Source of the DNA: Sipunculus nudus | Lineage: Eukaryota; Annelida; Sipuncula; Golfingiida; Sipunculidae | Direction of reading: 5' to 3' | DNA: 64,000 bases | Assembly (NCBI GenBank): GCA_026874595.1 | Contig: CM049320.1 | Coordinates: 37,882,714 to 37,946,713, forward strand | Shown here: positions 9,401 to 64,000 of the stretch, in pieces | Layout of the letters: each line of letters starts with the position of its first letter | How positions within the stretch are numbered: the first letter of the stretch is position 1 | Program-made: the position numbers and the translations under genes | Notes under the pieces: generated by a model | Database searches by the model: none | Seen by the model: only the letters and a program-made list of their open reading frames with translations | Told to the model about the DNA's origin: nothing

Positions 9401-10116
9401 TTTAGAAGTACATTAATAGAAATTAAACAATGATCAGATTTTATTGCCGGGCATATCTGCGTGTTAAGAATATTAAATTGTAAATGCCCACTTACTAACC
9501 AGTAATCTAGACGTGATTGCATTTTTGGTCTGTTTTGCTGATAAGTGTAACCTTTTTCATTGATATTGCGTAATCTCCAGATGTCAACAAGTTTTAAAAC
9601 ATCCATCATGTTTACTATAGCCTGTGCATACCTTGTCCTAGCTTTGTTCAAAACAGGACATTTATCCAAACTAGGATTTATACAAGTATTAAGATCTCCA
9701 CCCAATATAATGGTACAATCATATTCATACAGGTGCGATTCTATTTCTTCCTGGAAGTTTAATTTATCCTGCATGTGATCACCAGTTGGCGCATAGCAAT
9801 TCACTATTAAAAACTTTTGCTCATTTATATTCAACAACACATTATCCGTATTCGTCACTAATCTGCACTTCAAATGTCTTATCACATTTAGTTGGAAACA
9901 AAATGGCCACTCCTTTACTATTTGAAGTACCATTTGAATATAAAATATTACTACCCCACTCATGTTTCCAAATTTGTTCTCTCGATTGCTCAGAATGCGT
10001 CTTTTGTAAAAATATAAAACCTTTATGGAATCTTTTAAGCCATCTAATATCTGTCGACGTTTTTTCTTATCTCCTAGACCGTTAACATTTACGCTGGCAA
10101 AATAACACTCACTCAT
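6429..10116 (-). pseudogene. LINE ORF2 remnant: endonuclease, reverse transcriptase, CCHC
   Basis: The likely start is the MSECYFASVNVNGLG segment at 10116. The endonuclease keeps LIVNCYAPTGD, IILGGDLNTC, SRLDYWLVS and SDHCLISI (about 9400-10116). However, the region of the catalytic glutamate is frameshifted, and in the correct frame reads FLQKTHS, with Lys instead of Glu. RT traces follow: NWRPITLLN (about 8530-8560, -), GIRQGCPISALLF and LADDTTIF (YADD-box variant, ORF 7701-8207), then the thumb region (7571-7768). The C-terminus (6642-7298) has a C-X2-C-X7-H-X4-C finger (CNYCSDIDSIEHFLFEC), and the last segment can be followed through an internal stop to TGA at 6429. At least five frame breaks are visible. 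Confidence 0.85.
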
Positions 10117-10920
10117 AAACTTGAAAAACAATTAAAAACTTAATACCCCGCAAAACATAAAATAGTTTTAAGACCACATATGTCAGATCGTCATTACATC
10201 TAAATCCCAACAATACCTTGTCAAAAATGTCAAACTGTACAAATATAAACAGAATCCTCAATTTATTTCTCAGACTCCATACACGATCTCTATCACAAAA
10301 CCGAACCATTATATCCCTGCACTTATTCCGGTTTCTCGAAGAATCCCCCAACCTATGACAGCGCTGAAATTCAATATCTTCCACATTGTCTACCCCCAGC
10401 TTATCCACAAATAGAGCTTGTACTGTCTTTATACACATAGTACTCGATTCGTTAGAATCTTCAAGCAGTCCAGAAAATTTCAGGTTTTCTCCCCTTAAAT
10501 AAGTGTCGAAATGTAAAAGTCTCTCTTTTAAATCATGATTTTCATATTTATTTTCTTCTAACTGTTGCAATATTTTCGAGTTCACCCCTTCTTGTGCTTT
10601 TACTGTCTCTTTTAATGTTATCAATTCAGACTTAGTCTCTTCTAGCTCAGCCTGTGTGTGTTCAAGAGAATCTTGTAAGCTTTTAAAGTTTTCAAATTCG
10701 GCTCTTAACTGACCAACCTCTGTAGTAAGACCACCCATGGCATTTTTAATTTTCTCAATCTGGCTTTGTAGCTCTCTCATACTTAAATTATATCTGTCAT
10801 ATCTATTGCTTGTGTTCCTTGCTCACCTCTATCACCATCTGGCGAAGTAAGTTTCTTCCCCTTTGGGGTTCCTGTCGAAAGTTTTGGTGTCACCACTTTT
10901 GTTCGTGCCCTGGTATCCAT
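10109..10920 (-). pseudogene. LINE ORF1 remnant (coiled coil plus RNA-binding domain)
   Basis: ORF1 proteins of L1-type LINEs bind RNA and form trimers through a coiled coil. Here the N-terminus (10783-10920) gives a basic 45-residue segment starting MDTRARTKVVTPKLSTGTPK and then meets a stop. A one-base shift restores the frame into the 223-codon stretch at 10109-10780. That stretch has a heptad-like coiled coil (residues about 1-95, e.g. MRELQSQIEKIK). It continues into an RRM-like block with LRGENLKFSGL, IEFQRCHRLG and DIMVRFCDRDRVW (about 95-175), typical of the L1 ORF1 (Transposase_22) family. After NKLR the sequence loses family character, so a second frameshift or truncation is likely. 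The end overlaps the start of ORF2. Confidence 0.75.
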
Positions 10921-18769: not shown

Positions 18770-19135
18770 CCTCCTTTTCGATCAGCAGGTGTGAGGAGGA
18801 CACTGCGCAGAATCGGACTCACAAGAGCACGACTCTGCTGTTTAGGGATTTTGGTATTGAATATAAGCCCCTCAGTTTACCTAGATTTTTAAATACACCA
18901 GCGGCGGAGGTATAAACGTAGTGCAGAGGGTAATGTGTGTTGGAAAAGAATTCTTCCAAGTCAAATTACATAACATGAGTGTTTTGTAGTGAAGACTTCA
19001 CGGTACAAGTAATATGTTTTAAGCGTGCACATGTGAACTATAAAGACAAGGTGTTTCCTTTAAATGTGACAAATATTTATTTTAAAGTTTGACTCAATCC
19101 CACAATTCAAAAATGGAAGCGGTTCGTTTTGAGTT
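18770..19135. repeat. Dispersed repeat, unnamed family, copy 1
   Basis: Aligns by eye along its full length with 42570-42976. Shared blocks in order: CACTGCGCA.AATCGG.CTCAC, CTGCTG.TTAGGG, ACACCAGCGGCG.AGGTAT, TTCCAAG...TTACATAA, GGTATAAGTAATA-like, GTGCACATGTGA, AAGGTGTTTCC, TTTTAAAGTTTGA and TTCGTTTTGAG. There is no coding potential, inverted ends or polymerase III box. Copies are diverged, so the family is old. Confidence 0.65.
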
Positions 19136-42569: not shown

Positions 42570-42976
42570 CCCCGCTCCCTTCATCAGCCTCTGCTTATAC
42601 TTACACTGCGCAAAATCGGTCTCACAAAAGTTCGAGTCTGCTGATTAGGGTTTCTGTGTATAGAAATCCAAGCCCCATTATGTACCAGGGCTACTACATA
42701 CACCAGCGGCGTAGGTATTAATGTAGTGAAGAGGAAAATGCAGTATGTCCAAATATTATGTTTGATAAGAATTGTTTCAAGGCAGATTACATAAACATGG
42801 GTGTCTTTTTAGGATTTAGGGTATAAGTAATATTTTGTAAGCATGCGCATGTGATATCTAAACGGAAGGTGTTTCCTGGTACTGTAACAAAATTTGATTT
42901 TAAAGTTTGATAGTTGAGACAAGCAGTCCCGGCGATCAGCACTATTCCCATCTGGAAGGGATTCGTTTTGAGATCA
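42570..42976. repeat. Dispersed repeat, unnamed family, copy 2
   Basis: Second copy of the repeat at 18770-19135, in the same orientation. It retains CACTGCGCAAAATCGGTCTC, ACACCAGCGGCGTAGGTAT, GCATGCGCATGTGA, AAGGTGTTTCCTGG, TTTTAAAGTTTGA and TTCGTTTTGAG in order. It is slightly longer than copy 1 through small insertions. Confidence 0.65.
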
Positions 42977-44349: not shown

Positions 44350-47260
44350 TCATGGCTTCTGATATTAAGAATCAAAGACTAATTCTATTTCTGAGATTAC
44401 AATGAAATATTTTATTTCTAAATCTTGATTAGAATAAATATATACTATGAAAATCATATTTTTTTTCAAACCTTAATTGGTATATTTTTTTTAAATGTGT
44501 CAAACAGACAATAAAAGGTGTTTATTATATCCCAACTGTGATTCTCCCACGCTTGTGTGTCATCCCTGACCATCAAAGATAAATTGTTGCCACTGCACTG
44601 TTCAAATCTCTGTAACCCTCATTAATTTAATTGAAGAGCCGTATACAGTATAATTTGACGGGACACTTTATGGCAGACCCTTCTCCTGCCTACGGTAAAG
44701 CCACTCACATAAATACGATTTCGTTTACAACCTTTCCTGTGAAGGTCTGACATTTCAAATTTTTTCTCCGATGGGCAAGGAGTTGTGCTTCAAAATACTG
44801 CCCACGTTCGGAGAGAAAAGTCTACCCTAATCTGCTACAATCATGCCTGATTGACGACGGTAACTCCAGGCAAAAAGGCAATTCATGTGTATTTTTCCTA
44901 ACCGTGCACCCGGAATAACGCCTTTTGGATATTTGGCAAAGCTTTGACATTTATAACATCCTCTAATAATGGCTCTAAGAATATTACTCCTAATTTGGCC
45001 ACTTTTACTTGTCCATAAAAGCTTGTCAAGAAAAACTAATATTGCATTGAGCATTACTTTTTTCTAACCCCACGTGACTTTTTTTATTTTTATGTTGATA
45101 TTTGTTTTTCGTTTTCCTCGGCACATTTTGTTGAAAGGGTGTCAATTTTACGTAAAGTTACATAGAAGTGAGCAAATGGACGGATCGGCGACATTAAAAA
45201 GTACTTAAAAGTCACAGCATAAGACCCACCGTCAATGTACAAAATTATTTCAGAAGCCTCGTTTCCGGTTAATAAGATCGCAAACTATTTAAGTTGTATG
45301 AGGTTCCTTTTCCTGCTGCAATGTAATATAATACTTTTTTCCTGCAAAGACCCTTTTGGTTTGGCATTTTCGGTAACAAAACAATAACACAGAAAAATCC
45401 TATATTTTCAGGGTTCCATGCATAACCTTCCATAAATATATCAAGCTGCAGTTACAGATTTGTCACGGAAGGCATGTTTCAGAATGAGTTCTTTCAAGCA
45501 TGGAGCCGGGCGCAGCCGCCATTTTTCGCCAAGGCCAGCTGAGTTAAGATTAAGCCGAGCCTGAGAAAAAATTTAATACAAAAAGAATAAATCTTTTACA
45601 ATTAAAAATGCCCGAAACAAATGTTCAGGTTTTGTTTTAGTTTTTTTTTTCCTTTGTTTCTTGTCGTTGAAAGGAAATAGTGTGATTGTTGAAGTATGAA
45701 AAAATTGGCTTTTGAAACCACTAGAATGAGCTATACTCGATATTATATCACGAACTAGTTAAATGTAATATGGTTGCAATATTTAATATTTTTTTAAGAT
45801 TAGAGGGATACTTTATTACACCATCAAATGAATACAGGCTTTCAGGTCAGTTTAAGGCCAGCCGACATTTTGCAAGCTAAAGTCAGCCGTCCAAGCCAGT
45901 GGCATTTTTGTGGCTAACTCGGCTCCGGGCTCTTTCCATGCATGTAATGACCATTAACAAGTTTTAGGTCGTGTTCCTATTAGTTCGGCACAGAAAATTT
46001 ATTAAGCAGTTTCTTTCATTTGACCGGGGGCAGATGATTTACATGAATTTAGGATTGTGAGCGAGAGAAGTGAAAAGATATTTCATATATGTAATTTGTC
46101 GTGTTATAATTTCATTTAGATGAACGGAAGGAATTTTAAATGGCTAGAGTATGAAACAGTATAAGATCGAGAAAGGACTGTACAGATTTTCTGTCTCGTA
46201 CCAAAGAAATGTATTGCTGTTGTTGTCAGCAAACCCTAATTCTTCTGAGGCATATCACGTGGCAGACGGACTTAAAGGACGAGGCAGCAAATAAAAAAGT
46301 CACTTGAAGTCTAGAAACTGCCAGGGTAAATTGCTTTTAGCCACGTGATCGTACTCGAATTTGTCTCCGGTGTGGCATGTTCTGGCGTATTATCTGCAGT
46401 GCGTGATATTTTATTGTCATTTGGACTGGTCCAGTCTGAGTGGTGTCCTTCCTACGGATGGTAAAGAGACGGCATGATTTGTTAGACAAAAGGTTCGCCG
46501 AATGTAAGCGACTCTCACACATCACGTATTTTTCTTCCATCGCAACAGGTCGGCGCCGTACAAATTTTATCAGACGCCGGTAGTGACATTCTAGAAACCC
46601 TCATTTACTATCTTTAAGACGGTGCAGTATTTTATCCAAAGACATTTGTTATCTTGTTTCTTCCGTTAAATCTATTAGAAAGTTGCCTAGAGGCGGAGCT
46701 CAGCTTCGCTGCGAGTTCTGTCGGTTACTAATGTGTTAGTATATCCACTTTGTTATCATATAAAGTTTACCAGTATATTGCTCAAGTTTTTTTTTCTTTT
46801 AAACTCATGGTATGCAAATTAGGTGACAGAGGTAGTTGTTAATTGCGTTAAATCAAACGCAACAATGAAGTATATGTATAAGGACACTTGTTTCATCATG
46901 GCTACAAAAGTATGGTTCCTGTAGTTCTACCAATGAACTTAAAATTTCTACTTGTTTTTGTGTCTTTTATATCGTTTGATGTTAGTTCTTTATTACGCAG
47001 GTATCCATTCATTCACTTTAATGACGTTATAAGGCATTTTCAGATAGGTGATTCGAGCAGATATATAACGATAACTTAAATAAAGACGTGGTATGCCCAT
47101 ATCTTGACCTTACCTTTTTTAATGAATGGGATTATCAAATGTGATAGATAAAAACCCAGTATTAACTCTTTTGTGTTTTCCCAGTCAGTAATTCAGACTT
47201 TTTATATCCTTATCGAAATGCTACATTTTTAAACAAAATTACAAGTTACAATGGTATAGT
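44350..47260. other. Intergenic, nothing recognised
   Basis: No gene supported. The minus-strand frame at 46337-46540 starts in a fair Kozak context but has no splice donor or family resemblance. Confidence 0.35.
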
Positions 47261-48096
47261 TTGATCCATAGTTCAGTTTCGTGTGTAAAAATATGGAAAA
47301 GTCCTGTTTAGCGTAATTTACATTTACAGGGTACTTAAAAAGTACAGCAGATACGCTTATCGGTATATCGATATATCGGCAGTGTGAGGTCGTACGATAC
47401 GATTACCGATGGCTCCGACGAAATACGGAGACTGAAATTTCGCGATATCTTCATTTTGACCGTTTCGCGATTGCACCAGAACCTAAATAAAATCTAAGTA
47501 CAACAGTGTTTGAGTTTATTATAAAATGAGGAAATTCCAACGACACTTCACTGTTAATGCTACAGTAATTATAATAATACCTGTGTCATAGTTGACATAT
47601 ATATCCCCAGGGATTACCGCATCTTTTACAGTATTTAATGTGTGCTTTTATTGGACGGTTCCGATAGGTTTGTTGATTAATGAACCATGTTTTCAGAGTT
47701 GTTATAACTAATCTGTTTATATGCAGATGCATCATTCCCTTTTGTTCATCTTATTTGATAGGGTTTTATTCCCGTGGGTTTAATATTCGCGATTATTTCC
47801 CATTCGCTAATATCGTCACGTGAAATTAAAACCCTCGCGATCAAAAAGGCAGCAACCAGGTATAGGTTTCATAGACTGGCTCCCAGACGAAATTGTTATA
47901 TAGTCCTTCTTAAGCTGTATTGCATGAATTCAATCGAATAAAGGCTTTAAGCAAAAAATATCAAACCATTCGTTTAGCTCCATATTCGTTCATCTAATCG
48001 GGATGTAAGCTGCACGCCGGCCACAGATGAAACGGCAAATTAAAACACCCCAAGTCCTAAACGTCCTTTATTATCACTCAAATGCCACAATTTTTT

Positions 48097-49259
48097 TAAA
48101 GAAACCTCGTTGTGTCGAACTCGGTTAAATCGAATTCTCGCATGTGTCGAAGTCAAACGTGGGGTCCCTGAAAGATAGTTAAAACCTTATTTATTTAACT
48201 CCGCTTGTGTCGAAGTCGGATGTGTCGAAAAACCGGATGTGTCGAGGTGTTTTGTTGGTCCACAGCTAATATTTCTATCGCTTAACTCGAAGTCATGATT
48301 GGATAACAGTTATGCAGGGCCCGTCAATCATGATTGGGCCGTGATGACCAGTCATAATTAATTAATACGGACCAGGCTGTCACTCATCAAGCGCGATGGC
48401 TCTGTCGACCCGAGGTCATGCCGCTTTAATGTTTGGACCACAACTGTGCAGGGTCCAACAATCATACCTACGGCCGCGATGACTAGTTACATAAATAAAA
48501 CCGGCAAGGATCTTTCTCATCCCGCGCGACCATGCCTTTCTTCTCCCGCCGACAAAGCATTAATGAGAAGTTATTGATAAACCAAACATAATCCAATCCG
48601 TACCTTTGATGAGTCTAGGATAAACATACAGGAGTCCATATAATGGGTTGAAGATTGACTCTTATTCACCATAGAGTACGTTATACAGTATTACTGCTTT
48701 ACTTTTATATTGTTCGTATCCCGTTTGTTATGGGTTCGCGGCCTGCTAAGCGTAAGCTTGATATAAAGATCAGAAGTACGAAGCTGACGTGGTTTAACTC
48801 TGCTCGTGCACAGGACATCCCAGTCAGTGGACCCATGCTGCATGCCAAGGCTACTGACTTCGCAGTCAAGTTAGCGGTCCCCAACCTAAAGTGCAGCAAT
48901 CGGTTACATAAAGATCTGAAGGTCTGATGTGTTGTACTGAAAATGATCTGAGCAAATCGTTTATTGATTTGTGTGCTTTCATACACGTACATATATATGC
49001 TCTTATTTCACTTTCTTGATTTACCTAATCCTATTTTTGGTGATACTTATTTTTTTTATTATTGATAAAACCTGTGTTGTTCTTTCACGAAAACATTTGT
49101 GAGAACTATAAGAAATAGGCCCTGTACATGTGCAGTATTTATCCATCATAATCGAGGCTGAAGAAGGTTGAATATACTGAACATCGGTTATCTCGAACTC
49201 CGGTTGTGTCGAAGTAAATTTACCAGCCCCTTCGACTACGACACAACGAGGTTTCACTG
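48097..49259 (+). mobile_element. Internally deleted pogo/Tigger-like DNA transposon 1
   Basis: The right end, in complement CAGTGAAACCTCGTTGTGTC, pairs with the left end GAAACCTCGTTGTGTCGAAC (from 48101; the first bases are mutated). TA follows the right end at 49260-49261. Copy B keeps the uninterrupted TTTTAAAATATATGTTTAAT site near 59735-59757, so the borders are confirmed by an empty site. Subterminal regions repeat TGTGTCGAAGTC/TGTGTCGAAA words (48145, 48200, 48222, 48239, 49206). A ~125-base internal tandem duplication spans 48316-48540. It carries only a transposase fragment. Confidence 0.8.
48730..48927 (+). pseudogene. Tigger/pogo transposase fragment (CENP-B-type DNA-binding domain)
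   Basis: Starts MGSRPAKRKLDIKI, the usual beginning of Tigger-family transposases. It jumps over most of the first helix-turn-helix and continues with TWFNSARAQDIPVSGPMLHA and KATDFAVKLAVPNLKCSN, which is the HTH_Tnp_Tc5/CENP-B second DNA-binding motif (the IPVSGPML signature is distinctive). It then breaks down and stops after HKDLKV. The DDE catalytic domain is missing. The frame extends upstream to 48655, but the ATG at 48730 fits the family start. Confidence 0.75.
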
Positions 49260-49939
49260 TATATGTTTAATATCTCCCTGTCATAAGTATGGATATTTTA
49301 TCAATACAAAATCTAGGGCTACCTGCATAATTGATATGGATATTTCTTCTTAATTCCAGCCCGAGTAAGAAGAAACTCCAAGGATTTTGATAATTAACGT
49401 TGCTCTAGGTCTGTCACAAATATTGTTAAATTACCACACTTTGTGCTCCCAGGCACGTAATGTCTGTCTCCTGATTGATGCCACACGTGATTTACCAGAA
49501 CACATGGACACACACGGTATGTCATTAACGGTGCCAGGGTTTGCAAATTAATTCCCCTCACGTTGAACTTATGGAAAAAGGCGCAAAGACCAGATTAGGG
49601 GCGGGACCAGAGGGATGCCTGCTGATGCCCACATCTCACTCCTTCTAGATACGTGATATTTTTATACCTACCTTCCTCCTACTGAGAATTCTTCCACGTA
49701 TAAAATATTGCTATAATTATAATAAAAATAATAATAATAATGCAGTAGAACGCCTGTATTGCAGTCACCATCGGGACTGGATGAAAGACTATACAGGACT
49801 TGACCAGGATAGGGGGTTAAAATGTAACACGAAACCAAGTTCAAATCTTTATTACAGTCAACATAATAAACGTATATACAGAGTATTAGAATAGTTACTG
49901 CTATCAATAAAAAAATAAAATATTTATGACATCGTTCAG

Positions 49940-50201
49940 TTTATCATTCTCTGTAGATACACACTGGCATTTGCGTTTTCTTCATACTGTTCCATTATCT
50001 ATCACTTCCTCTAAAGTATTATTTAACCTGAGTTCGGCCGACACCATAGATTTCTGCTAGCTGTCTGCTGCTTTTCCCGTAACTCTTCCTGATCAGATCT
50101 ACCTTATTTTGAGTGCAAGTTCTTGTCTTTTCGTGGTCACCATAATGGTCAAAATGATTTGGACAGAGTAATTTATACATGTAACAATGTTTATTTTGCA
50201 T
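49940..50201 (-). pseudogene. Tigger/pogo transposase N-terminal helix-turn-helix fragment
   Basis: Minus-strand frame 50019-50201 gives TCTQNKVDLIRKSYGKSSRQ then LAEIYGVGRTQV, a CENPB_N-type helix-turn-helix (KV.LI...GKS.R.LA..YGVG.TQV). A one-base shift after TQV continues NNTLEEVIDNGTV, then a stop and RKRKCQCVSTENDK, as in the linker of Tigger transposases. The rest, including the DDE domain, is deleted and the element passes directly to its 3' inverted end. The fragment is not functional as a transposase. Confidence 0.65.
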
Positions 50202-50426
50202 TCATAATTATTCATGTATGAGTAAATTATTTGATGTTTGCCGCACTGTTTTCGTTTGATGTACGTGTTCACAAGGACATTAAAGAAAGGTTTAAAGATC
50301 CACAGTTTGCCTAACGTTTTTCTGATGACATAATCATCGGGACCCGCTGGTTGTCATTCGTTAATTAAATGACAAACACTCTGATTAAGATACGGCTCGC
50401 ACGACTGATTCCCAAACATACAAGAG

Positions 50427-50857
50427 GTTTGTTTGTTTGTTTGTTTGGCTTTTATTTCCTCCAAAAATGAAGATTACACAAACAAAAATATACAAGATTC
50501 CAATATTTAGAACAATTATTGGATACAGTGTTTATGACACTTTTCAAAAATATTAATAATAATATTATCAATAGTATCACCATCATCACCACCATTACCA
50601 TTAATAACATTATTATTAATAATAACAATAATAATAATACCAACAATAACAATAGCAATAGTAATAATAATAATAATAAAAATAATAATAATAAAATAAT
50701 AGCAATACTAACAACATCAAATCAGCGTTATATATACAATCAATAAAAAAAAAAGTGGATAATAATATTAGAAAACCCACAGAATTGTGCTCTGTTTATT
50801 CGCAATCAACTGAGCTCAATTACTGTTATTATCACAACCGTCAGTTTGACAATTTCA
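50427..50857 (-). other. LINE 3' UTR and (AAAC)n tail
   Basis: Between the ORF2 stop and the tail lies low-complexity AAT/AAC/ACC trinucleotide sequence (about 50545-50705 on +), followed by AATAAA just before GCCAAACAAACAAAC (minus strand, 50427-50455). Confidence 0.7.
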
Positions 50858-53800
50858 CTAGAGTCCCTGTGTTGTAACAAAAACATAACGTGCCCAACAC
50901 AGTAGAATCTGAAAGTATTCGTTTTCGTTGGCAATAAGATCATCATGATCTGCCCCAAACACAAAATAAACAAATGTTTCAGAATTAAGAGCACGTAGCT
51001 GATTTATATTTGTATCCGGGCACAACATATTTAGCTTATCCCAGACAGTATTCCTATCCTCCGTAAGAAAAGTACACTCTATGAGAACATGGAATACTTT
51101 GTCGCTAAAAAACTGACCACACCTGTGACAAAGTATTTCATTTCTAAATATTCTAATATCCGGTCTGACCAGCAAGTGTGCCAGATACTTGAATACATTC
51201 ATACAATACGGGTGAGACATTGCTGCTCTCCACAGTGAAGATGGGTGTGAACTATACGAGGGCAGTACATTCGCAAAAAAGGAGAGCGACGCGTCAGCTT
51301 CAAGTGTTGCCGTATAAGCCTGTTGGTCATGCTGCATTATGGCGTTATCGATAATATCCTTCCAAGATCGTTTATTTGGGAAATGTGAAGATGTTTTCAA
51401 GTTCTCAATGTATCCATTTAAGTTGTATTTCACAAGTATGGGATAAAAATCTCCCCAGATTCCTTTCGGCTTTCTTTTACAAATGAAATAATGAAAAAGC
51501 CTTAGAATTAATATTTCTTTACAAAGATTATGGGGACTGTTGCGGCATTGCTGCCCTAAAAACAGCAACTTAGCTCTGTCAACACAGGAACCCATATTGG
51601 GACATCCCACCATTCGCGTCACACAAACTGAACGCGACCTCATGCTAAATCCCTGTGACATTTTCAAACAATATCTCAAAAACCTATCAAGCCGCAACAT
51701 TTCCACATCTGATATTCTCCACCACAGTTCGCAACCAAATATTGCACGGGGTACAATAACATGGCGTAAGAGCTTGCAAAATGTCAAAGGGTTTAACCCC
51801 TGGCCCCCAGCTAATCCTACAACATTCATAAAAGAAGCTCTCCCCTTAGTGACAGCTGCTTGTATTCTTTCAGTGTTTAGGCATGACTTGTCCTGTATGA
51901 TTCCTAAATGTTTAACTGATGAAACTACTGGGATATTTTGTTCTCCCAAGAACCAATTCAAACTTCTGTAATATTTTACATTGAAGGTGACAATATTAGA
52001 TTTTTTAACATTATAATTGAATCTCCACTTGCAAGAAAACATATGGCATATATCAATTAAGCGTTGTAAATTACCTGGCGTTATTGCAAGAAGACAGACG
52101 TCATCGGCTTGGGTTGGGGACCCTGTATAAACATTACCAATAGTTGCACCAAACCCCGAGCCTCGCAGGGTTTTTAATAGGTCATTGATATACACCAAAT
52201 ATAGCAATGGTGAGAGAATTCCCCCCTGACGAACAGACTGCAATTACGGTATAGATTTAGATACACATTTTCCTACAACAACTCTAGAATAGCAATCACT
52301 GTACATTTCTCTGATCATGCGCCACATCTTACCCCTAATTCCCATTCTGTATAGCTTAAACAATAATCCTGCATGCCAAACAACATCAAATGCACATTTT
52401 GTGTCGAGAAAACAAGCGTACAATGGTGCAGTTCTTTCAATATGATAAGCAATGCACTCTTGTACAACAAATGATGCATTGATGCTAGACATACCTTTCT
52501 GATACCCAAATTGCATCGGGTCTGGAAATATATCTGTTTTATGCTCGATCCAGCGCATGATTCTGGACAAGCACACCCTTTCATACAGTTTGTATATTAC
52601 CGGTAAAAGAGTGATGCCTCTAAAATCTCCCGTCTCATTGGCCCTTTTACCTTTTTGTTTCGGAATCATAATTACCGAACCATGCTTAAGATTTGATGGA
52701 ATATACTCAAGGCGGCTCATCAGTGTAATAAGAGAACACAATTTTGTCCACAAAACATGCCCACCATACAGTATATGTTCACAACATATGCCATCTGAGC
52801 CCGGCGCTTTCCTGGGTTTCAGTGTTTTAACTGCTTCAATTATTTCCGTGACAGAAAATCGAGAATCCAAAATAGGGTTATAATGATTCCTGCTTAATGT
52901 CACAAAAGTATCAACCATATTTGTTATATACGTGAAATGTGCCTGATCAAAATTAATCCCAGAAAGTGGAGTATACAATTCAGACAAGTGACTAGCCCAG
53001 GCGCCAGCAATATCATTCTCATGTCTTAAGGTTTCACCTTTATATTTCAGCTCCGAGCAACTACTTTTAGATTTGCCCCCTCTGGCTCTTAAAATAGCCC
53101 AAAAAGCCCCTTCGTCACAATGAGATGACCTGTCCAATTCGTTTAACAAATTTATTTCATATCTGTAGCGTAACTCTCTCATTTTGAGTCGGAAAAACCC
53201 GTTTTGCGTCTTTATAATTAATGTATAGCACATGTTCTGCATTGCGTGGTTTTCCGGCATCAACCCATCTCCTCCTGTGTCGCCTCATAATAATATGAAG
53301 TGGTTTTAAACCTTCTTTCCAAAATGGTTTTAAATAAGATTTCCTTCCCCCAACTGGAATTGTTTTATCACTAACCCCGTGTAAAACTGAAATCATTTTA
53401 AAATAGAAATCATTCACTTGATTAGGGTCATTACAGGTTTCGATATCTGGACAACTCAGTTGGCTTAAGATCTCTTGTACCTCTTCAGTGTACGTTGTTT
53501 TAATCTGCTCAGCTGTGAGCTTGTGCCACAAAAGACGCACCTGCCTTGTATTTGTTTCGGTAACAATTAAACCTGACAATTTCAACCTTGCAACCACCGG
53601 CAAATGATCGGACACATTCAGGTCTTCCCAGTCCAGTACCATGCATGAAGATACCAGATCAAGTTTACAATCTTCGATCAAAATGTGATCAATTAGGGAA
53701 ATATTATTTCTACTAGTTTCGTGCTGATATGTATAAGCTGGACCAGAACATACATTATTATTGCTAAGCGTGATCAAGCCCCTCTCTACAAATGCCTGAC

Positions 53801-54329
53801 TTGCTTTGACACTACGAATATCACTACGCGGAGAGTGCCGGTCTCCCTCTAATTCTACATTCAGGTCACCTAGCAGGATTACTATGCCAACTTCAGAGTA
53901 CATGTCATACATGTCACAGAGAATATTTAAATGCTCATTAAAATTATCAGTATCAACATTTTTTGGTGGCAAATAAGCTACAAATATAAAGAGCAACTGT
54001 CCTTGGTCTAAATTTATACGTAACCCGGCTATCCGGTCAGACACGCAGTCTATCGGGGTAACTCGTGACCTATATTTTGTTTTATATAACAGTGCTGCGC
54101 CACCCTTGCCTCTTCGATACGGATCAAGATGATCCAGCGAAGCATCTGAGACACCATGAGATACATATTCTGTAGAAACAGAATTCAAAAAATGCAAACT
54201 GTCCTCGAAAAGCCAGTGTTCAGTTACTCCGAAAAAATCGACGTCGTACTCACACATAACATGAGACAGATACGGCGCTGAAAACATAGCTCCTCGAGCA
54301 TTAAAACAAGCAATGGTTATGTGATTCAT
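50858..54329 (-). pseudogene. LINE ORF2: endonuclease, reverse transcriptase, CCHC; two lesions
   Basis: From MNHITIACFNARG (54329) an apurinic-type endonuclease shows TEHWL, GGAALLY, ILLGDLNVE and VSDHLPVVARL. Near 53200-53215 a one-base shift moves the frame from NYKDAKR into GFFRLKMRELRYRY. The RT then shows KAPGSDGICCEHIL, VIMIPKQKG, FRGITLLPVIYKLYE, FGYQKG and FLDTKCAFDVVWH (first catalytic Asp). A single in-frame TAA at 52244-52246 follows SKSIP, and the same frame resumes QSVRQGGILSPLLY and TQADDVCLLA (catalytic Asp pair; Q replaces the usual Y/F). The tail has C-X2-C-X9-H-X4-C (CHRCGQFFSDKVFHVLIEC). About 1,155 codons in total. All catalytic motifs remain, so death was recent, or one lesion could be an assembly error. 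Confidence 0.85.
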
Positions 54330-54426
54330 TATGTGAGAAAAGTTGACAAAATATAATACAATGAAAGCACAAAGTCCAATAGACAAAAAAAATAAATCAA
54401 GTAAATAACGTCCTTGTTAACTAGCA

Positions 54427-56028
54427 CTAATATTGCGGACCTTTCTTCTCATCCGTTTCAATCCATCGACGACAATACACAATCCCTGGCCAGAAATCTT
54501 TAGCAAATATTTTTTCCTCGTCTGCTGGATCATCATGTATTTTAGCGCCTTGAGCATCTCCCCGTTTAGTCGGGAAAATGTGCGAATATGTCACTTTAAT
54601 GTTCCTTACAGACAAGTAATCAAGCATAGACTTTTTTGTCGCACCAATGGAAATGTTGCCAATATACAACTTGAGTGTTTTTCTGCTTTTTTGCACAGAA
54701 ACAAAACCTGACGACTCATCACACTCCTGGTTTTGTGTCATGCGTGAATTAGCATAATGTGCTCCTTCAAAGGTACTCAGCTGGTCACAGTGCTCGGTGT
54801 GCACCTTGTGGTATGGTGTTCGTTCGTTCGTCTCCTGGATGTATTCCCGGACAGAATCTCTTATTTTCCGCGGTGCAGCTGTTGGTTTCCGAGCGCTCTC
54901 CCTCATTGTAATCTGGACAGATATAGGTATTCCTTCCTCTGTGGTTTGTACCGTCCCCACTTCGGAATGAAGCATCTGTTTATCTGGTTTGTTACCAGGA
55001 TTTGAGTCAGCCTTATTCTCCGTAATTACAGGTATTGTGTTGTAACCACCTGTTGCATCACTAGGGTTGTGGACTATTGGCGTCAGTTGTTCCATTTCAC
55101 TAAATACCTCCACACCAGGAGATTCACCCGACTCATCGGTTCGTTCATCTCTCGAAGCATCTGTTGTTCCCTGTAATTTTGACGCATACGTTGACTTAAC
55201 TTTTGTCTGCGTGTAAATTCGTTCAAGCTGAAACAGTCGTTGACGGAGCTTGGTGATGGATTCGACACATGATCTAGTTTTCTCAGCTGTCAACTCGTTT
55301 TCTTTCATCATATCATGAAATTTCTGTTTAGTATCTTTCATTTCTGAGTGTGATTGAGCAGCTTTGTTTTCAAAACGTTCTGTCATATTCCCCAATTTTT
55401 CTTCTACTTTCTCAGTACATTTCTCCAAATCCATCACCCGTTTTCTGTTTTCTGAAATTAATTCGTTTGACACAATCACGTGATTTACCTTTTCCTTGAC
55501 CCTGCTCAGTTCATTCATATTTTCATCACACTTGGATTCCAGTGCACTGAATTTTTCGTTATACGTCTGTATAAAATTCGTTTTACGCTCCTGGGCGGCA
55601 TTAGCTAGCCCCTCTAAATGTTCCAGTCTGGACATAAGCTGCTGATTTTCCGAAGACATATTTACGATCTTGCTCGATAAATGTTCTATTGTCTTTTCAG
55701 CCTGGTTTAGTTTTTCACAAATAGCCTTCCATTCTTGGTTGTAAGAATCTTGCAATTCGTTTGCTTTACCCACTGCTTGCGTGACAGCTGACCGGAGACC
55801 AGCAAGTTCTTCTCTAACGTGGTTTTCTATGGGATTACACTGCGCTTCAGCTGCCCCTCCCTGTGTAGGGCGGCCACCACTAATGACTTCGTAAATGTCC
55901 TCAACCGCACCCCCGTTTATAAACGTTTGCAGTATATAACAGTCTCTAGCAAGTTTGTACACAAGGCTCGGACCATCTTGTGTAATGATATTGAGGTCAG
56001 AAGAGGCCGCTCGATCTGTTGAGCCCAT
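54427..56028 (-). CDS. LINE ORF1 protein, coiled coil plus RNA-binding C-terminus
   Basis: An uninterrupted 533-codon frame beginning MGSTDRAASSDLN. Residues about 70-290 form a long, heptad-rich coiled coil (e.g. LNQAEKTIEHLSSKIVNM, LVQ/E-rich, few prolines), expected to oligomerise. A low-complexity, Ser/Thr/Pro-rich linker follows (about 290-435). The C-terminus (about 445-530), starting LKLYIGNISIGATKKSML and ending FWPGIVYCRRW, is an RRM-like fold whose WP-G-V---RRW ending is characteristic of ORF1 proteins of several invertebrate LINE clades. Such proteins bind the LINE RNA to form the retrotransposition particle. The intact frame contrasts with ORF2, which has two defects. Confidence 0.85.
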   Translation of the reverse strand: MGSTDRAASSDLNIITQDGPSLVYKLARDCYILQTFINGGAVEDIYEVISGGRPTQGGAAEAQCNPIENHVREELAGLRSAVTQAVGKANELQDSYNQEWKAICEKLNQAEKTIEHLSSKIVNMSSENQQLMSRLEHLEGLANAAQERKTNFIQTYNEKFSALESKCDENMNELSRVKEKVNHVIVSNELISENRKRVMDLEKCTEKVEEKLGNMTERFENKAAQSHSEMKDTKQKFHDMMKENELTAEKTRSCVESITKLRQRLFQLERIYTQTKVKSTYASKLQGTTDASRDERTDESGESPGVEVFSEMEQLTPIVHNPSDATGGYNTIPVITENKADSNPGNKPDKQMLHSEVGTVQTTEEGIPISVQITMRESARKPTAAPRKIRDSVREYIQETNERTPYHKVHTEHCDQLSTFEGAHYANSRMTQNQECDESSGFVSVQKSRKTLKLYIGNISIGATKKSMLDYLSVRNIKVTYSHIFPTKRGDAQGAKIHDDPADEEKIFAKDFWPGIVYCRRWIETDEKKGPQY

Positions 56029-56047
56029 GTCACGGAGTCACTGCCCC

Positions 56048-56226
56048 TGACCGTAATTGAGGCGTTTCCCGGCCTGCAGGACCGAGAGACCTGACCGTAA
56101 TACGGAATAGAGGAGTGACCGTAACTGACAACAAAATGATTATGAAATATAACGGTCGAAAATTCGGGACCGGAAAATCTGACCGTTATAGACGTATTGA
56201 CCGTTATTAAGGCGTGGCCGTTAGCA
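56048..56226. repeat. Cluster of GACCGTWAY motifs upstream of LINE ORF1
   Basis: GACCGTAATT, GACCGTAATA, GACCGTAACT, GACCGTTATA, GACCGTTATT and GGCCGTTAGC occur at about 56049, 56093, 56117, 56181, 56199 and 56217, plus an inverted TAACGGTC at 56149. They lie between ORF1 and the right inverted end. They could be subterminal transposase-binding repeats or part of the LINE 5' UTR. Confidence 0.6.
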
Positions 56227-56239
56227 GGCGTTCTACTAT

Positions 56240-56242
<3 letters not shown>

Positions 56243-56283
<41 letters not shown>

Positions 56284-56434
56284 GAATAATAAAAAGATAA
56301 TTAAAAAAAACAAGAATGATAAGAAGAAGAAATATAATAATAAAAATAATAATTATATTTGTAAAAATAATGATTAATATAATAATTATTATAATAATAA
56401 AATAATAATAGTTTTAATAATAATTATTATTATA

Positions 56435-56467
<33 letters not shown>

Positions 56468-56475
56468 ATTATTAT
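56243..56475. repeat. (AAT)n running into (ATT)n, hairpin-forming
   Basis: A long TAA-type trinucleotide tract changes to ATT-type near 56400, so the two halves are mutually complementary. Copy B has the same arrangement at 60206-60415, which anchors the alignment across the big insertion in A. Confidence 0.85.
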
Positions 56476-58046
56476 TTGGTTATATTTTTATATGTTTTTG
56501 CTTGCTTTTATGACACCCTTAGCACCAAAATCCAAACTCACCAGACAATTTCAGATTTGTGGTCATAAAGAAGTAGACTTTTTTTATTCACATCCTAAAC
56601 ATATGACGCCAACACGTTGTTTCCCCGACTATTGGGAGAGTTGTGGATATTTGAACATCTGAGCAACGTTTGTCGGTAATGCCGTTAATATCGTCAGTGG
56701 AATACAGATTAATGCTTTTTTATTTATTTTTAATTTAATGCATCACATATAATCTTGATGATTTATACACTTCACAGTAAAATTCATAAAATTATTAAAT
56801 ATATGTGTGGGATGGTTCCGATAAAACCATATGCTTACGAAAATCGGTTGATTTTTTATTAAAACTGTGTTGAATTATTGCATCGGCACAGAGAAATTCT
56901 AAAATTATTAAAAAACCATGTAAGATGGGTCCGATAGAAATACATACTTGCGACAATCGAATTTATATCTTCATAAATGTTTCATAAGCTTTTTGGATTT
57001 AAAAAAATTAAATGTACTTCGTTTTCTACCGTGCATCCACACGTCGGTATGCTCCCCGATCACATTTGTTACTATTTTGTTGAATTATCTATCAAACTTC
57101 GTCTCAGCTTATCTTAAAGGGTTATGAGACTTTACTGGTGGGACAGGGATAAAAACACCGATAATGGCACAAGAATACGGATCAGCTTCAATCACATCAT
57201 ATATAATCAGGCGCATGATAAGTAATCCATCAATTACCACGATTTTCCGGACAGTAATTGTCTGTCCGGCTGCCCATTGTTATCACAGTTATTATCATTT
57301 TCTCCGTTCTTGTCCAGTTACTCAATTACTGGTGGATTTTCAGTGACGCAAATGATATATGAAATTGTTAAATCGTTAATGCCATGTTATTGTTGCGCAA
57401 TGAATGATTATGATTTCGTCCCCGCTTTGTGAACCAAACTAAAATAGGTATACCCTGCACAGTCGGCTAATATTGATAAAGTATGTTCGGGAAATGCAAT
57501 CGGAACAGTATCCAGTTACATTTCTCATATTTTCAACAAACCTACGAGCACCAAGGGTATCAGCGTGACGTCAGTCGAGATCACCTGTGACAAGATTTTA
57601 ACTGTTTCTGTATTTTATAGACTGGTTTTGGATTTTATCACATTGTTTCGTAGGCTTGTGTTATTTATCAAAACAATACGTGTTTTTTTGCGTTGAAGCA
57701 TTTTTCCTGCTGCAGAGAAATTTTGTTTTCAACAATTTGGCTTTGGTAGTGAAATTCATGATGGAAATTATAAGCATGTGCTCACTGCGTGCAGCGGCTT
57801 ATTTTGGCCGTATTCCAGGGTATAATTTAAGAAATATTTACGACTGCACAAACATGTAATCAAGCGTGGTACATCAGCATATATAGACCTACCAATAAAA
57901 CAACTGATCGCCAAAGGAACCAGCCTGGTGACCAGCGACACAGATTGAATATTTAGATTGAAACATAACCTGTTAATCTCGAGGTTGTATATATATCTTA
58001 TTGATATTTTGTGAATATTATGAATGAATTACGAATGAAATGATGA

Positions 58047-58052
<6 letters not shown>

Positions 58053-58110
<58 letters not shown>
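58053..58110. repeat. (TA)n microsatellite at the copy A end
   Basis: About 57 bases of TA followed by CCGGTATATTTATTTGTTA. The same junction occurs in copy B at 63921-64000. Confidence 0.95.
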
Positions 58111-58112
<2 letters not shown>

Positions 58113-58133
58113 GGTATATTTATTTGTTAAAAA

Positions 58134-58954
58134 ATAAAACAGAATGTTTACATATTTATACCAGAGATAATTATATGGTTTATAGCCTTGATTGACATAC
58201 GTGATCGATGAAATTAATTTATTTACAGATGAATAATAAAGTGGTTTTTCGTCTGTAACAGAACAAAACTCTGATAGACCAATGGTTTTCTTCCGGTGTA
58301 TGCATCATCAGGTGGCGAAGCAATATATCATCCATCTGGTTTGCCTGTAAACAGATTCTACGCAAAGGCCCTGGACCGATTTTGATGACATAGTATGGAA
58401 GATTATGGTAACCTCGAAGTAACAATAAATTAAATATTGGCGGTAATTTGAATCAACAAAAATTGTATTAAGTTGCTTTTGTGGCAGATCATTGGTTTTA
58501 GAGGTGGCTTCGAGAACCGGGCTTAAATTTTGAGTAAAGGAAAAGTAAGAAACTTAGGAATTACGATGCTGGCGGGGGTATTTATGTAGTCGAACGACTA
58601 TTGTTATTAACCTTTCAGACTTATAAGGGTTTCGTTCACACTTTCAAATGGAAATCATAGAAAAGAATGCAACATTCTACAAAATAAAGACATTCTTAGC
58701 AAGACTAGCCCATGCATTAAGGTCAGGTTTTATACTAGGATGTTGGTGTAAATTTTTTGACAGACGTGAGAGTAATCAAACAATCAAACATGGGCAAAAC
58801 CACTACCTCCTTGGCGGAAGTAATGACCAGATGGAGCACAGGAACCACAGCACTGGAGTCTAATACAGGAAATACATTAAGGAAAACTTAATGGCCACTT
58901 TTGATCTTATTAGATGGCAAATGTCTACAACTCGATATATAAAGCACGATATAT
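58134..58954. other. Sequence between the duplicated segments
   Basis: No gene recognised. It either separates two copies or is the last part of a tandem unit whose counterpart lies beyond position 64000; the window cannot distinguish these. Small ORFs at 58219-58863 lack coding features. Confidence 0.4.
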
Positions 58955-60205
58955 ATCCATAGTTCAGTTTCGTGTGTAAAAATATTGAAAAGTCCGGTTT
59001 AGCGTAATATACATTAACTGGGTGCTTAAAAAGGAATACGGAGACTGAAATTTCGCGTTATCTTCGTTTTGACCGTTTTGCGAGGTTTTTTTTTTCGCGA
59101 TTGCACCAGAACCTATATATGAAATCTAAGTACGGCAGTGTTTGTGTTTATTATAAAATGAGGAAAATCCCACGATACTTCACTCTTAATGTTACAATAA
59201 TTTTAATAATACCTGTGTCATAGTGGACATATATATATATCCCCAGGGATAAACCGCATGTTTTACAGTATTTAATGCGTGCTTGCATCGAACGGTTCCG
59301 AAAGGTTTGCTGCTGGTTAATGAACCATGTTTTCAGAGTTGTTATAACTAATCTGTTTATATGCAGATGCATCATTCAATCTTGTTCATCTAATTGATAG
59401 GGCGTCTTATTCCCGTGGGTTTAGTATTCGCGATTATTTCCCATTCGCTAATATCGTGAAATTAAATCCCTCGCGAACAAAAGGCAAACACGGTATTATA
59501 AAAGAGATATAGTCTCCAAAGCCTGGCTTCGTGACAAAGATTGTTGTTTAGTCCATCTTAAACTCATTGTATGAATTCAATCTAATAAATATGTTAAGGA
59601 AAAAATATCAAACCTTTCTTTTAGCTCCGTATTCGTTCATCTAATCACGATGTAAGCTGCACTCCGGCTACTGATGAAACGGCAAATTAAAACACCCCAA
59701 GTCCTAAACGTCCTTTATTATCGCTCAAATGCCACTATATTTTAAAATATATGTTTAATATCTTCCTGTCATAAGTATGGATATTTTATCCATAATCTAT
59801 TACAAAATCTAGGTCTACCTGCATAATTGATATGGATTTTTCTTCTAAATTACAGCCTGAGTAAGAAGAAACTCCCAGGATTTTGATAATAAACGTTGCT
59901 CTTGGTCTGCCATAGATATTGTTAAATTACCACACTTTGTGCTCCCAGGCACGTTGCGTCTGTTTCCTGATTGGATGCCACAGATTTACCAGAACAGATG
60001 GACACACACGGTATGTCATTAACGGTACCAGGGTTTGAAAATTAATTCCCCTCACGTTGAACTTATGGAAAAAGGCGCAAAGACCAGATTAGGGGCGGGA
60101 CCATAGGGATGCCTGCTGATGCCCACATCTCACTCCTTCTAGATACGTGATATTTTTTATACCTACCTTCCTCCTACTGAGAATTCTTCCACGTATAAAG
60201 TTTTA

Positions 60206-60415
60206 ATAATAATAATAAAAATAATAATAATAATACTAATAATATTCAAAGAAATAATAATAATAAGAAGAAATATAATAATAAAAATAATAATAATATG
60301 AATAATAATAATAATGATTAATATGATAATAATAATTATTATAATAAAAATAAGTTATAATAATAACAAATATTATTATTATTGTTGTTATTATTATTAT
60401 TATTATTTCATTATA
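60206..60415. repeat. (AAT)n/(ATT)n tract of copy B
   Basis: Uninterrupted counterpart of the A tract that was split by the 6.5-kb insertion (A pieces at 49711-49741 and 56243-56475). Confidence 0.85.
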
Positions 60416-61117
60416 TTCTAATATGTTTTAATGTACGTTTGCTTGCTTTTATAAAATCGCTAGCTCCAAAAACCAAAATAACCAGACAATATCAGATTGT
60501 TTGTCACAATGAGTAGACTTTTTTTATTCACATTGTTGAAATCCTAAACATATGACGCCACATGTTGTTCCCCGCCTATTGGGAGAATGGTGGAAACTGA
60601 ACATCTGAGCAACGTTTGTCGGTAAGGCCGTTAATATCGTCAGTGGAATACAGATTTATGCTTTCTTTATTTTTTTTTAATTAAATGCTCACATATAATG
60701 TTAATGATTTATTCACTTCTCGGTAGAGAAATACTCCTAAAATTATTAAATATATGTGTGGGATGGTTCCGATAAAACCACATGCTTACGAAATCGGGTG
60801 TGGGCAATTAAGAAAAATCTGAATTTCACAATTTATCGTAAATAAATCGTTGTTGAATAAATGCATCAGGTATACTGATGTCAGTTTACGTACTTCTCGG
60901 CAGAGCGAAAATCTAAAATCATAAAAAAGCGTATAGGACGGGTTTGATAGGAATTAATGCTTGCAAAATTCAGTTATGAGCAGTTCAGAAATAGTTGATT
61001 TTTTTTAATTTATTGTGAATAAATATCTTCATAAATGTTTCATAAGCTTTTTAGATTTAAAATATTAAGTGTACTTCGTTTTCTCCCGTACATCCACACG
61101 TCGGTATGCTCCCCGAT

Positions 61118-61135
61118 CACATTTGTTACTATTTT
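61118..61135. repeat. Target-site duplication, left copy
   Basis: CACATTTGTTACTATTTT, repeated exactly at 62944-62961. The pre-insertion single copy survives in segment A at 57061-57078. The last Ts merge with the poly(T) of the LINE tail. Confidence 0.9.
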
Positions 61136-61282
61136 TTTTTTTTTTTTTTATTGCCAAAACAATTTATTAACATGAACATAAAAAACAACATGATACATTA
61201 CATACAAGACATCAAGGACACACAAAGTCACACAACTACGCAAAACCGTAACACAAAATGGTACGTATCTGTAAGAGAAATG

Positions 61283-61285
<3 letters not shown>

Positions 61286-61331
<46 letters not shown>
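61286..61331. repeat. (TA)n microsatellite in the LINE 3' UTR
   Basis: About 45 bases of TA lie just downstream of the LINE ORF2 stop, inside the inserted element. Confidence 0.95.
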
Positions 61332-61335
<4 letters not shown>

Positions 61336-61342
61336 TCTAGTG

Positions 61343-62943
61343 CTAATTTAATCTATTTTTAATGTAAGTATCCACTCTTTGTATTATGTTACCCCACTTC
61401 TCTTTATGTATCTGAGTCTTTTCACTATTCTTGGCTATCCTTTTTTCTATATCTTCAAAAGATTTAATATAGTTTAAACAGCTTAATATATTTGGTTCCT
61501 GATGCTGGCATCTGCATACATATATATATATATATCTTTTAACTGACAAAACCACCATATTCACACTTTGTGATTCGTATTGATTAAATATAATACCTTT
61601 AAAATCCAATTTTTTCCCTTCACAAAATTCTTGTTCACCTTCTAAAATCTCACTCAGACTCTTCCACAAACTTCGACTCTTTTTGCAAAGCCAGAACAAA
61701 TGACAAATTGTTTCAGACTCTGTCTTACAAAAGGAACATGAAGCATCTGTCTGTTTTTTAATTTTAACCAGGAAAGGATTTAGAGTCAATTTTCTGTGTA
61801 AAACTCTAAACTGAAAGTATCTGAGCTTGCTATCGATTGTAATTGTATATATCTCTTTAAAGGACTGCATTATATATTCCTCTGTCACACCTAGTTCTGC
61901 CTTCCATTTATTGCATATATTACAAGGTTCTGCAGATATAGTTTTCAGAACCTTTTCATAAATTTGCTTTGAAAAAGTTTGTTTATTTAATATTTAAAGA
62001 AATGCTACTTTATCTGAATTGTTTATATTTTCAATCTTTTGAATATGTTCTTTCCAGGCTAGTGGTATTACGCTCACTAACCCATAATACTCTAAAATAT
62101 TTGGTTTACAATCAAATATTTTGCAACATTCATCAAAATTACAAAATCTAGTTTCACCTTTATCATTAATTACAATATCTCTTATAAATTTTATTCCTTT
62201 CTCTGCCATTGTTCTTATGTAAACCATTTTGTGGTCAATTTTAATATAAGAATTAAACCATATTGCTTGATCTAACAGACTGCTTATTTTATCCTCTGGT
62301 TCGAAATGGTATATTGCCCAACTGGAAAAAACCTCACACCAAAAAGGACTACATTTTGACATAAGTTTCTGAATATCTTGGGCATTAATATTCCCTTCTA
62401 GTATATATACAATTTTTTCCTTCATATCATTTAAAACTAATTCTGTCCAAGGTTTCAGTTCATTTCCTACAAACAACCTTTTTATCCAATTTGTTTTCAG
62501 TGAAATATTTTTACTCTCAAGGTGAACCATAGCCAGTCCACCTCTATCTTTCCAGTTATACATTATATTCCTATTAATTTTATCAGCCCCTCCATTCCAA
62601 ATGAATTTAAAGAATTTAGATTTAAGATTTGCATAAAATTGCTTTGAGGGACTTGGAAGGACAGACATTATGTAGACTAGCTGTGGTATCAGTTGTGACT
62701 TTATAATTGTTATTTTACCAAGGGGAGACAATTTTCGACTTGACCACAGGTTTAATATATTTTCAATCTTTTTTAATTGTTTATTATAATTAATATCTAT
62801 CATATCTTTCCAATCTTCACTTTTTGTTATTCCTAAAACTGAAATTGGTTCTCTCGTAAACAATATGCCTAGGTCTGTTATTATTTTTTCATTATTTTTA
62901 AGCCTACAACAGTTTCCTAATGGTTTAACTGACGTTTTATCTA
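61343..62943 (-). pseudogene. LINE ORF2 C-terminal part, one stop codon
   Basis: The frame is open from the truncation point (62943) through LGNCCRLKNNEKIITDLGIL and LFTREPISVLGITKSEDWKD. The thumb/connection NLWSSRKLSPLGKITIIKSQ then runs to VAFL, where a single TAA (61994-61996) intervenes. The same frame continues ILNKQTFSKQIYEKVLKTIS and EPCNICNKW to a C-X2-C-X8-H-X4-C finger (CSFCKTESETICHLFWLC) and ends at TAA 61343. A YIYIY run near 61515-61535 reflects a (TA)n expansion inside the coding part. The endonuclease and catalytic RT core are missing. Confidence 0.85.
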
Positions 62944-62961
62944 CACATTTGTTACTATTTT
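62944..62961. repeat. Target-site duplication, right copy
   Basis: Exact repeat of 61118-61135, followed by GTTGAATTATCTAGCAAACT, which continues the copy A sequence after 57078. Confidence 0.9.
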
Positions 62962-63917
62962 GTTGAATTATCTAGCAAACTTCGTCTCAGCTAACCTTAA
63001 GTCGTTATTAGACTTTTTCTGGTGGGACAGGGATAATAAAACCGAGAATGAAGAAGAATACGGATCAGCTTCAGTCGCATGATATGTAATCAAGCGCAGG
63101 ATGTGTAATCCATCAATTACCACGATTGTCCGGACAGTAATTGTCTGTCCGGCTGCCCACTGTTATCACAGTTATTATCATTTTGTCCGTTCTCATCCAG
63201 TTACTCAATTACTGGTGGATTTTCAGTGACGCAAATGATATATGAAATCGTTAAATCGTTAATGCCATGTTATTGTTGCGCAATGCAAGATTATGATTTC
63301 AATCCCCGCTTTGTGAAACCAACTAAAATAGGTATGCCCTGCACAGTCGGTTAATATTGATAAAGTATGTTCGGGAAATGCAATCGGAACAGTATCCAGT
63401 TACATTTCTCATATTTCCAACAAACCTACGAGCACCAAGGGTATCAGCATGACGTCAGTCGAGAGCATCTGTGACAAGATTTTAACTGTGTCTGTATTTT
63501 ATGGAGTGGTTTTGGTTTTTTATCACATTGTTTTGTAGGCTTGTGTGATTTACCAAAACAATACGTGTTTTTTGTGTAGATGCTTTTTCTGCTGCAGAGA
63601 AATTATGTTTTCAACAATTTGGCTTTGGTAGTAAAATTCATGATGGAAGTTAAGCATGTCCTCACTGCGTGCAGCGACTTATTTCGGCCGTATTCCAGGG
63701 TATAATTTAAGAAATATTTACGACTGCACAAACATGAATTCAAGCGTGGCACATCAGCATATATAGACCTACCATTAAAGCAACTGATCGCCAAGGAACC
63801 AGCCTGGTGACCATAGATTGAATATTTAGATTGAAACATTACCTGTTAATCTCGAGGTTGTATATATATCTTACTGATATTTTGTGAATATTATGAATGA
63901 ATTACTAATTAAATGAT

Positions 63918-63920
<3 letters not shown>

Positions 63921-63974
<54 letters not shown>

Positions 63975-63981
63975 ATATATA
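63921..63981. repeat. (TA)n microsatellite at the copy B end
   Basis: TA tract with one TT interruption at 63962, followed by the CCGGTATATTTATTTGTTA junction as in copy A. Confidence 0.95.
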
Positions 63982-64000
63982 CCGGTATATTTATTTGTTA

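Follow-up and report, generated by a model that had tools for sequence, protein, structure and literature searches.

A probable head-to-tail tandem duplication with private transposon insertions in Sipunculus nudus

Introduction

Two direct copies of one stretch of DNA, lying side by side and carrying different transposons, raise the question of what event produced them and in which order their insertions followed. We addressed this question for a locus in Sipunculus nudus, using a stretch of 64,000 nucleotides (the window; contig CM049320.1 of assembly GCA_026874595.1, positions 37,882,714 to 37,946,713) together with 40 kb on its right and 10 kb on its left, 114 kb in all; positions are those of the window, continued beyond its right end. 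A first-pass annotation had described direct copies from 47264 and from 58955, at an offset of about 11.7 kb, and had offered two readings: either a local event had produced a tandem, or a large repeat not yet recognised lay here twice in succession. It named a co-linear match between the copies as one test, and it proposed a self-alignment that takes in the right flank and a genome search for other copies of the unit.

Results

Two abutting copies with common ends

Self-BLAST of the window gave six collinear direct matches between the copies, A and B, beginning at exactly the two starts first described; E was reported as 0 for three of the six and was 3e-26 for the weakest. The start-to-start offset measured 11,691 bases, in agreement with the earlier estimate. 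With the 40 kb on the right included in the self-alignment, copy B was found to run past the window to about 66323, its right end lying beyond two segments present in B only.

47264..58954, plus strand: copy A of the unit, with 3952 bp that can be aligned when the larger private segments are left out
58955..64000 in the window and on to about 66323 beyond it, plus strand: copy B of the duplicated unit, from self-comparison and flanking DNA
47264-47342 and 58955-59033, direct: A/B match, self-BLAST
47422-48100 and 59035-59747, direct: A/B match, self-BLAST
49260-49741 and 59748-60234, direct: A/B match, self-BLAST
56260-56850 and 60204-60800, direct: A/B match, self-BLAST
56959-57081 and 61017-61138, direct: A/B match, self-BLAST
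57061-58129 and 62944-64000, direct: A/B match, self-BLAST of the window only
57061-58274 and 62944-64146, direct: A/B match, 114-kb comparison
58272-58912 and 64827-65444, direct: A/B match, 114-kb comparison
58920-58952 and 66291-66323, direct: A/B match of 33 bp, 94%, E 2.7e-9

Copy A ends at 58954 at the latest and B starts at 58955, with at most two extra bases at the join, which reads GCACGATAT, then AT, then ATCCATAG. At the start of A, GTTTG is followed by ATCCATAG, and the sequence preceding it is unrelated; at the end of B, GCACGATAT is followed by GGGGCC, and the DNA beyond is unrelated as well. In the assembly, A and B are a two-copy head-to-tail tandem duplication in which both ends are common to the copies, which supports the first of the two proposed readings, the local tandem event. 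A 39-base junction filler between the copies was considered and rejected, since 33 of those bases recur at 66291-66323.

Comparison of the unit start with the unit end, and of the unit end with the left flank, showed no repeat above 8-10 bases, and the two flanks shared no repeat at E 1e-8 in the 114-kb comparison. This speaks against an origin by recombination between flanking repeats; the 10% divergence of the copies limits any inference on short microhomology at the unit ends.

A near-single-copy unit with older repeats inside

Five queries covering nearly the whole unit were searched against the species' own genome (1.43 Gb, 153 contigs). Across all five, A and B were the sole matches to the long alignable parts of the unit, and no other full-length copy appeared among the candidates scored, which speaks against the second proposed reading, a pair of large unrecognised repeats. 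The remaining matches were confined to short parts. Query 58955-59954 gave, besides itself and three pieces of A, at least 40 pieces at 37 places with 69-82% identity, all within query positions 87-552 (40 of 2487 candidates scored). For query 57090-58040, with all 21 candidates scored, A and B were the only full-length matches and all others, 20 of 22, lay within 722-951. Query 58115-58990 (36 of 36 candidates scored) matched A, B and the start of A, plus short pieces: 29 of its 36 matches fell within 1-158, and three of 61-113 bp and 72-80% identity, at 261-373, were the only others listed outside known repeat parts. Among the matches listed for query 59955-61137, all but itself and A lay in the (TAA)n part at 240-478 (40 of 1644 candidates scored), and query 65449-66286 had one candidate, itself.

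59041..59496 (in A about 47428-47862), no strand assigned: older dispersed repeat in both copies, own-genome matches of 69-82%
57811..58274, no strand assigned: short and older dispersed repeat surrounding a (TA)n run in both copies, from own-genome matches

Apart from the A/B matches, these common repeats are 68-85% identical to their relatives, and they predate the duplication. Overall, the unit is near-single-copy DNA of an ordinary kind that contains older repeats. A Helitron-like or other transposon identity of the whole unit, which starts with TC after an A, was also rejected: no end-to-end repeat was found in a unit that is near single copy. In both copies, at 56238-56476 and 60204-60407, (TAA)n runs into (TTA)n as a long imperfect palindrome.

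Uneven divergence between the copies

With the (TAA)n blocks left out, A and B are 90.65% identical over 3530 columns (330 mismatches, comprising 146 transitions and 184 transversions, and 46 gap events), a mean mismatch of 9.35% and a K2P distance of 0.0999, or 0.050 per copy. The best block reaches 94.4% (49258-49714), so the earlier figure of roughly 95% in the best parts was about right; other blocks lie at 92.9-93.4%, and the worst, at 82.6%, comprises the internal repeat and the (TAA)n stretch. Mismatches per 100 columns had a variance-to-mean ratio of 3.71 against a shuffled mean of 0.88, and none of 2000 shuffles was as high. One 100-column stretch is free of mismatches while others hold 19-30, and the longest identical run is 94 columns (p 0.017). 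Divergence is thus spread less evenly than chance would give, and a single rate of drift does not suffice to describe it. The unevenness lies partly at an internal tandem repeat (56756-56863 against 56868-56977) and at a poorly aligned dispersed-repeat edge; gene conversion, constraint and poor alignment within repeats are possible contributors.

Private insertions and losses

Both Tigger-like insertions ascribed to A and said to be missing from B were recovered. The LINE claimed for A is also present and private to that copy; it does not count as a separate insertion into the unit, since it sits inside Tigger2. The LINE claimed for B lies between exact 18-bp target-site duplications, and A carries the same 18-mer once, as an empty site. 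Three independent insertions into the unit (Tigger1, Tigger2 and LINE B) and a further one into Tigger2 (LINE A) match the earlier count of at least three.

48096..49257, plus strand: Tigger1, Tigger-like (pogo-type) DNA transposon in A only, with dispersed relatives
49743..56244, minus strand: Tigger2, Tigger-like DNA transposon in A only, with a 13-bp exact terminal inverted match, split by LINE A
50427..56040 (right end approximate), minus strand: LINE A, nested in Tigger2, with ORF1-like, endonuclease and reverse-transcriptase frames and a (CAAA)n-type 3' tail
61136..62943, minus strand: LINE B, in B only, 5'-truncated, between duplications at 61118-61135 and 62944-62961
57061..57078, plus strand: empty LINE B target site in A
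47343..47420, no strand assigned: 78-bp segment in A only, an insertion in A or a deletion in B
64147-64826, beyond the window: 680-bp segment in B only, an insertion in B or a deletion in A
65449-66286, beyond the window: 838-bp segment in B only, single-copy in its own genome

Each of the two Tigger-like elements is a member of a dispersed family, and the ends match. Relatives of Tigger1 begin at 48101 and end at 49257 (95 matches from 40 scored of 1377 first-look candidates), and the many relatives of Tigger2 begin at 49743 (40 scored of 753 first-look candidates). Tigger1 gave an HTH_Tnp_Tc5 match with E 1.8e-4 and 21.8 bits, just below the 22.2-bit Pfam cut-off; the Tigger2 fragments gave only weak HTH matches below cut-off (E 0.055 and 0.17). 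Terminal branches, which are upper bounds on insertion age, measure 0.046 (429 columns) in the 5' part and 0.093 (327 columns) in the 3' part of Tigger1, and 0.033 (494 columns) and 0.047 (182 columns) in the left arm of Tigger2. The Tigger-like elements are about as old as the duplication and likely inserted after it, a placement that follows by parsimony from their absence in B and with which their ages are compatible without proving it.

LINE A matched Exo_endo_phos at 24.8 bits (cut-off 24.5) and RVT_1 at 39.9 and 27.7 bits (cut-off 29.6), and its second frame is in pieces. The five best of its 59 matches elsewhere are 98-99% identical, and only 2 of 994 columns are private to it against five relatives, a terminal branch of 0.0024. 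Of the direct repeats sought as a target-site duplication, none exceeds 8 bp and the 8-bp one is not at the edges, the right end being uncertain; both relatives examined for a 5' end are themselves 5'-truncated. LINE B carries a zf-RVT domain, a 3' tail and dispersed relatives, the three best of which are 98% identical; 9 of 1572 columns are private, a terminal branch of 0.0075. Since both branches are far below 0.050 per copy, it is well supported that both LINEs are clearly later than the duplication. The first-pass order, duplication and then insertion, accordingly holds for the LINEs by their low divergence; for the Tigger-like elements, it follows from parsimony, and their ages are compatible with it.

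As for the smaller segments, the 78 bp in A have no other match beyond 12-13 bp within the 114-kb stretch. The left 90 bases and bases 450-640 of the 680-bp segment match dispersed repeats (at least 39 further matches, with 40 scored out of 1171 candidates), and its edges show no clear target-site duplication. The 838-bp segment was probably deleted from A, the simpler reading for single-copy sequence.

Coding content and neighbouring repeats

All open reading frames of at least 100 aa in 47000-64000 lie in transposons, one of them extending beyond LINE B by 28 bases. Of the 20 longest frames of the unit (stop to stop, 68-117 aa), ten were compared with Pfam: eight had no match at E 0.1, and two had chance-level matches (E 0.067 and 0.05) far below cut-off. 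Rfam returned no family at gathering score, and the tRNA search found none. The unit shows no sign of function and looks like neutral intergenic DNA.

Elsewhere in the 114 kb, 4830-5806 and 71996-72842 (the second beyond the window) are inverted copies, 82-88% identical, of an element with a minisatellite-like array of period about 150-180 bp. Satellite-bearing non-autonomous Helentrons are described for the oyster in PMC7492417, and the element resembles these. A degenerate LINE occupies 6642-10822 on the minus strand; its endonuclease (PF14529), reverse-transcriptase (PF00078) and zf-RVT-like parts are scattered over separate, broken frames. Dispersed repeats at 18800-19092, 42603-42910 and 78642-78938 (the last beyond the window) resemble one another at about 73-75% and have no relation to the unit. 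At 102624-103111, also beyond the window, a short-unit tandem array matches itself at shifts that are multiples of 15 bases.

Discussion

A single local tandem duplication, followed by drift and by private insertions and loss, is very probably the history of this locus. One local event on one chromosome would have doubled an intergenic segment of about 4.8 kb in head-to-tail orientation; of this length, the two copies still align over about 3.95 kb, and about 0.84 kb is retained in B only. The join would be non-homologous, by end joining or replication-based template switching, given that no repeat is found at the unit ends and at most two bases are extra; short microhomology may have been erased by the 10% divergence. 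The copies would then have drifted apart. Copy A would have gained Tigger1 and Tigger2, the latter being hit very recently by LINE A, and some 0.84 kb was probably lost close to the right end of A. In B, LINE B would have been gained recently through target-primed reverse transcription.

A different order, in which Tigger1, Tigger2 or both already lay in the unit before it was duplicated and later left B by cut-and-paste excision, appears doubtful. Tigger-like elements are able to excise, and the branches (0.033 and 0.047 for Tigger2, 0.046 and 0.093 for Tigger1) bracket the 0.050 per copy, the 3' branch of Tigger1 exceeding it and the 5' branch nearly equalling it. However, such branches only cap the insertion age, parsimony favours gain in A, and no excision footprint of Tigger1 is recognisable by eye in B, where the AT-rich and (TAA)n context could mask one. 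The uneven divergence described above could mean that parts of the unit are constrained, for example as a regulatory element or non-coding RNA present in duplicate, or that the copies are still linked by gene conversion; we consider this highly improbable.

The duplication itself could also be questioned. In a heterotype false duplication, A and B would be two haplotypes of one locus set side by side by the assembler; two alleles would also show different transposon insertions, and haplotigs fit a collinear mosaic with private insertions. PMC9516828 gives its marks as gaps separating the pair, read depth reduced to half and linked reads that are discordant; here, the 114,000 bases that hold the copies and their surroundings contain not one N. 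Moreover, 9.35% mismatch with 46 gap events would probably be extreme for alleles. We regard this explanation as improbable, and an assembly artefact seems unlikely judging from the sequence. That A and B represent a large, unrecognised dispersed repeat or composite element, present twice in a row, is scarcely credible: the unit does hold parts of two or more dispersed repeats, along with a (TAA)n stretch that has many matches, but outside these parts its long stretches matched A and B only in the five own-genome searches, and the copies abut, with no terminal repeats found at the unit ends.

A local tandem duplication remains our preferred reading. Its value lies in the clean layers at one locus, where repeats common to both copies are oldest, the duplication follows, Tigger-like elements close to it in age come next and young LINEs are last. 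The locus serves as a local check, on a small scale, that events following a duplication can be put in order from private insertions, and it leaves the understanding of mechanism unchanged.

Comparison with known systems

Terminal inverted repeats and an adjoining TA are criteria for pogo/Tigger transposons. Both elements here have inverted repeats beginning CAGT and a TA beside their ends, and Tigger1 adds the Tc5-type DNA-binding match just below the Pfam cut-off; they differ in being broken, without intact transposase. With APE-type LINEs, LINE A shares the endonuclease and reverse-transcriptase domains, and LINE B the zf-RVT domain, 3' tail, 5' truncation and target-site duplication, whereas the second frame of LINE A is broken.

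Tandem direct duplications are common, and recombination between repeats is the prevailing model, according to PMC3744419; no such repeats are seen at this unit. Bivalve genomes, according to PMC10294476, are characterised by segmental duplications. Compared with local tandem (segmental) duplications of animal genomes, the unit is small (about 4.8 kb originally), apparently geneless and with no homologous repeats found at its ends. It shares with them two direct, abutting copies on one chromosome with common ends, neutral divergence and later private transposon insertions. A tandem duplication with private transposon insertions is an ordinary genome event, of which this locus is a new example.
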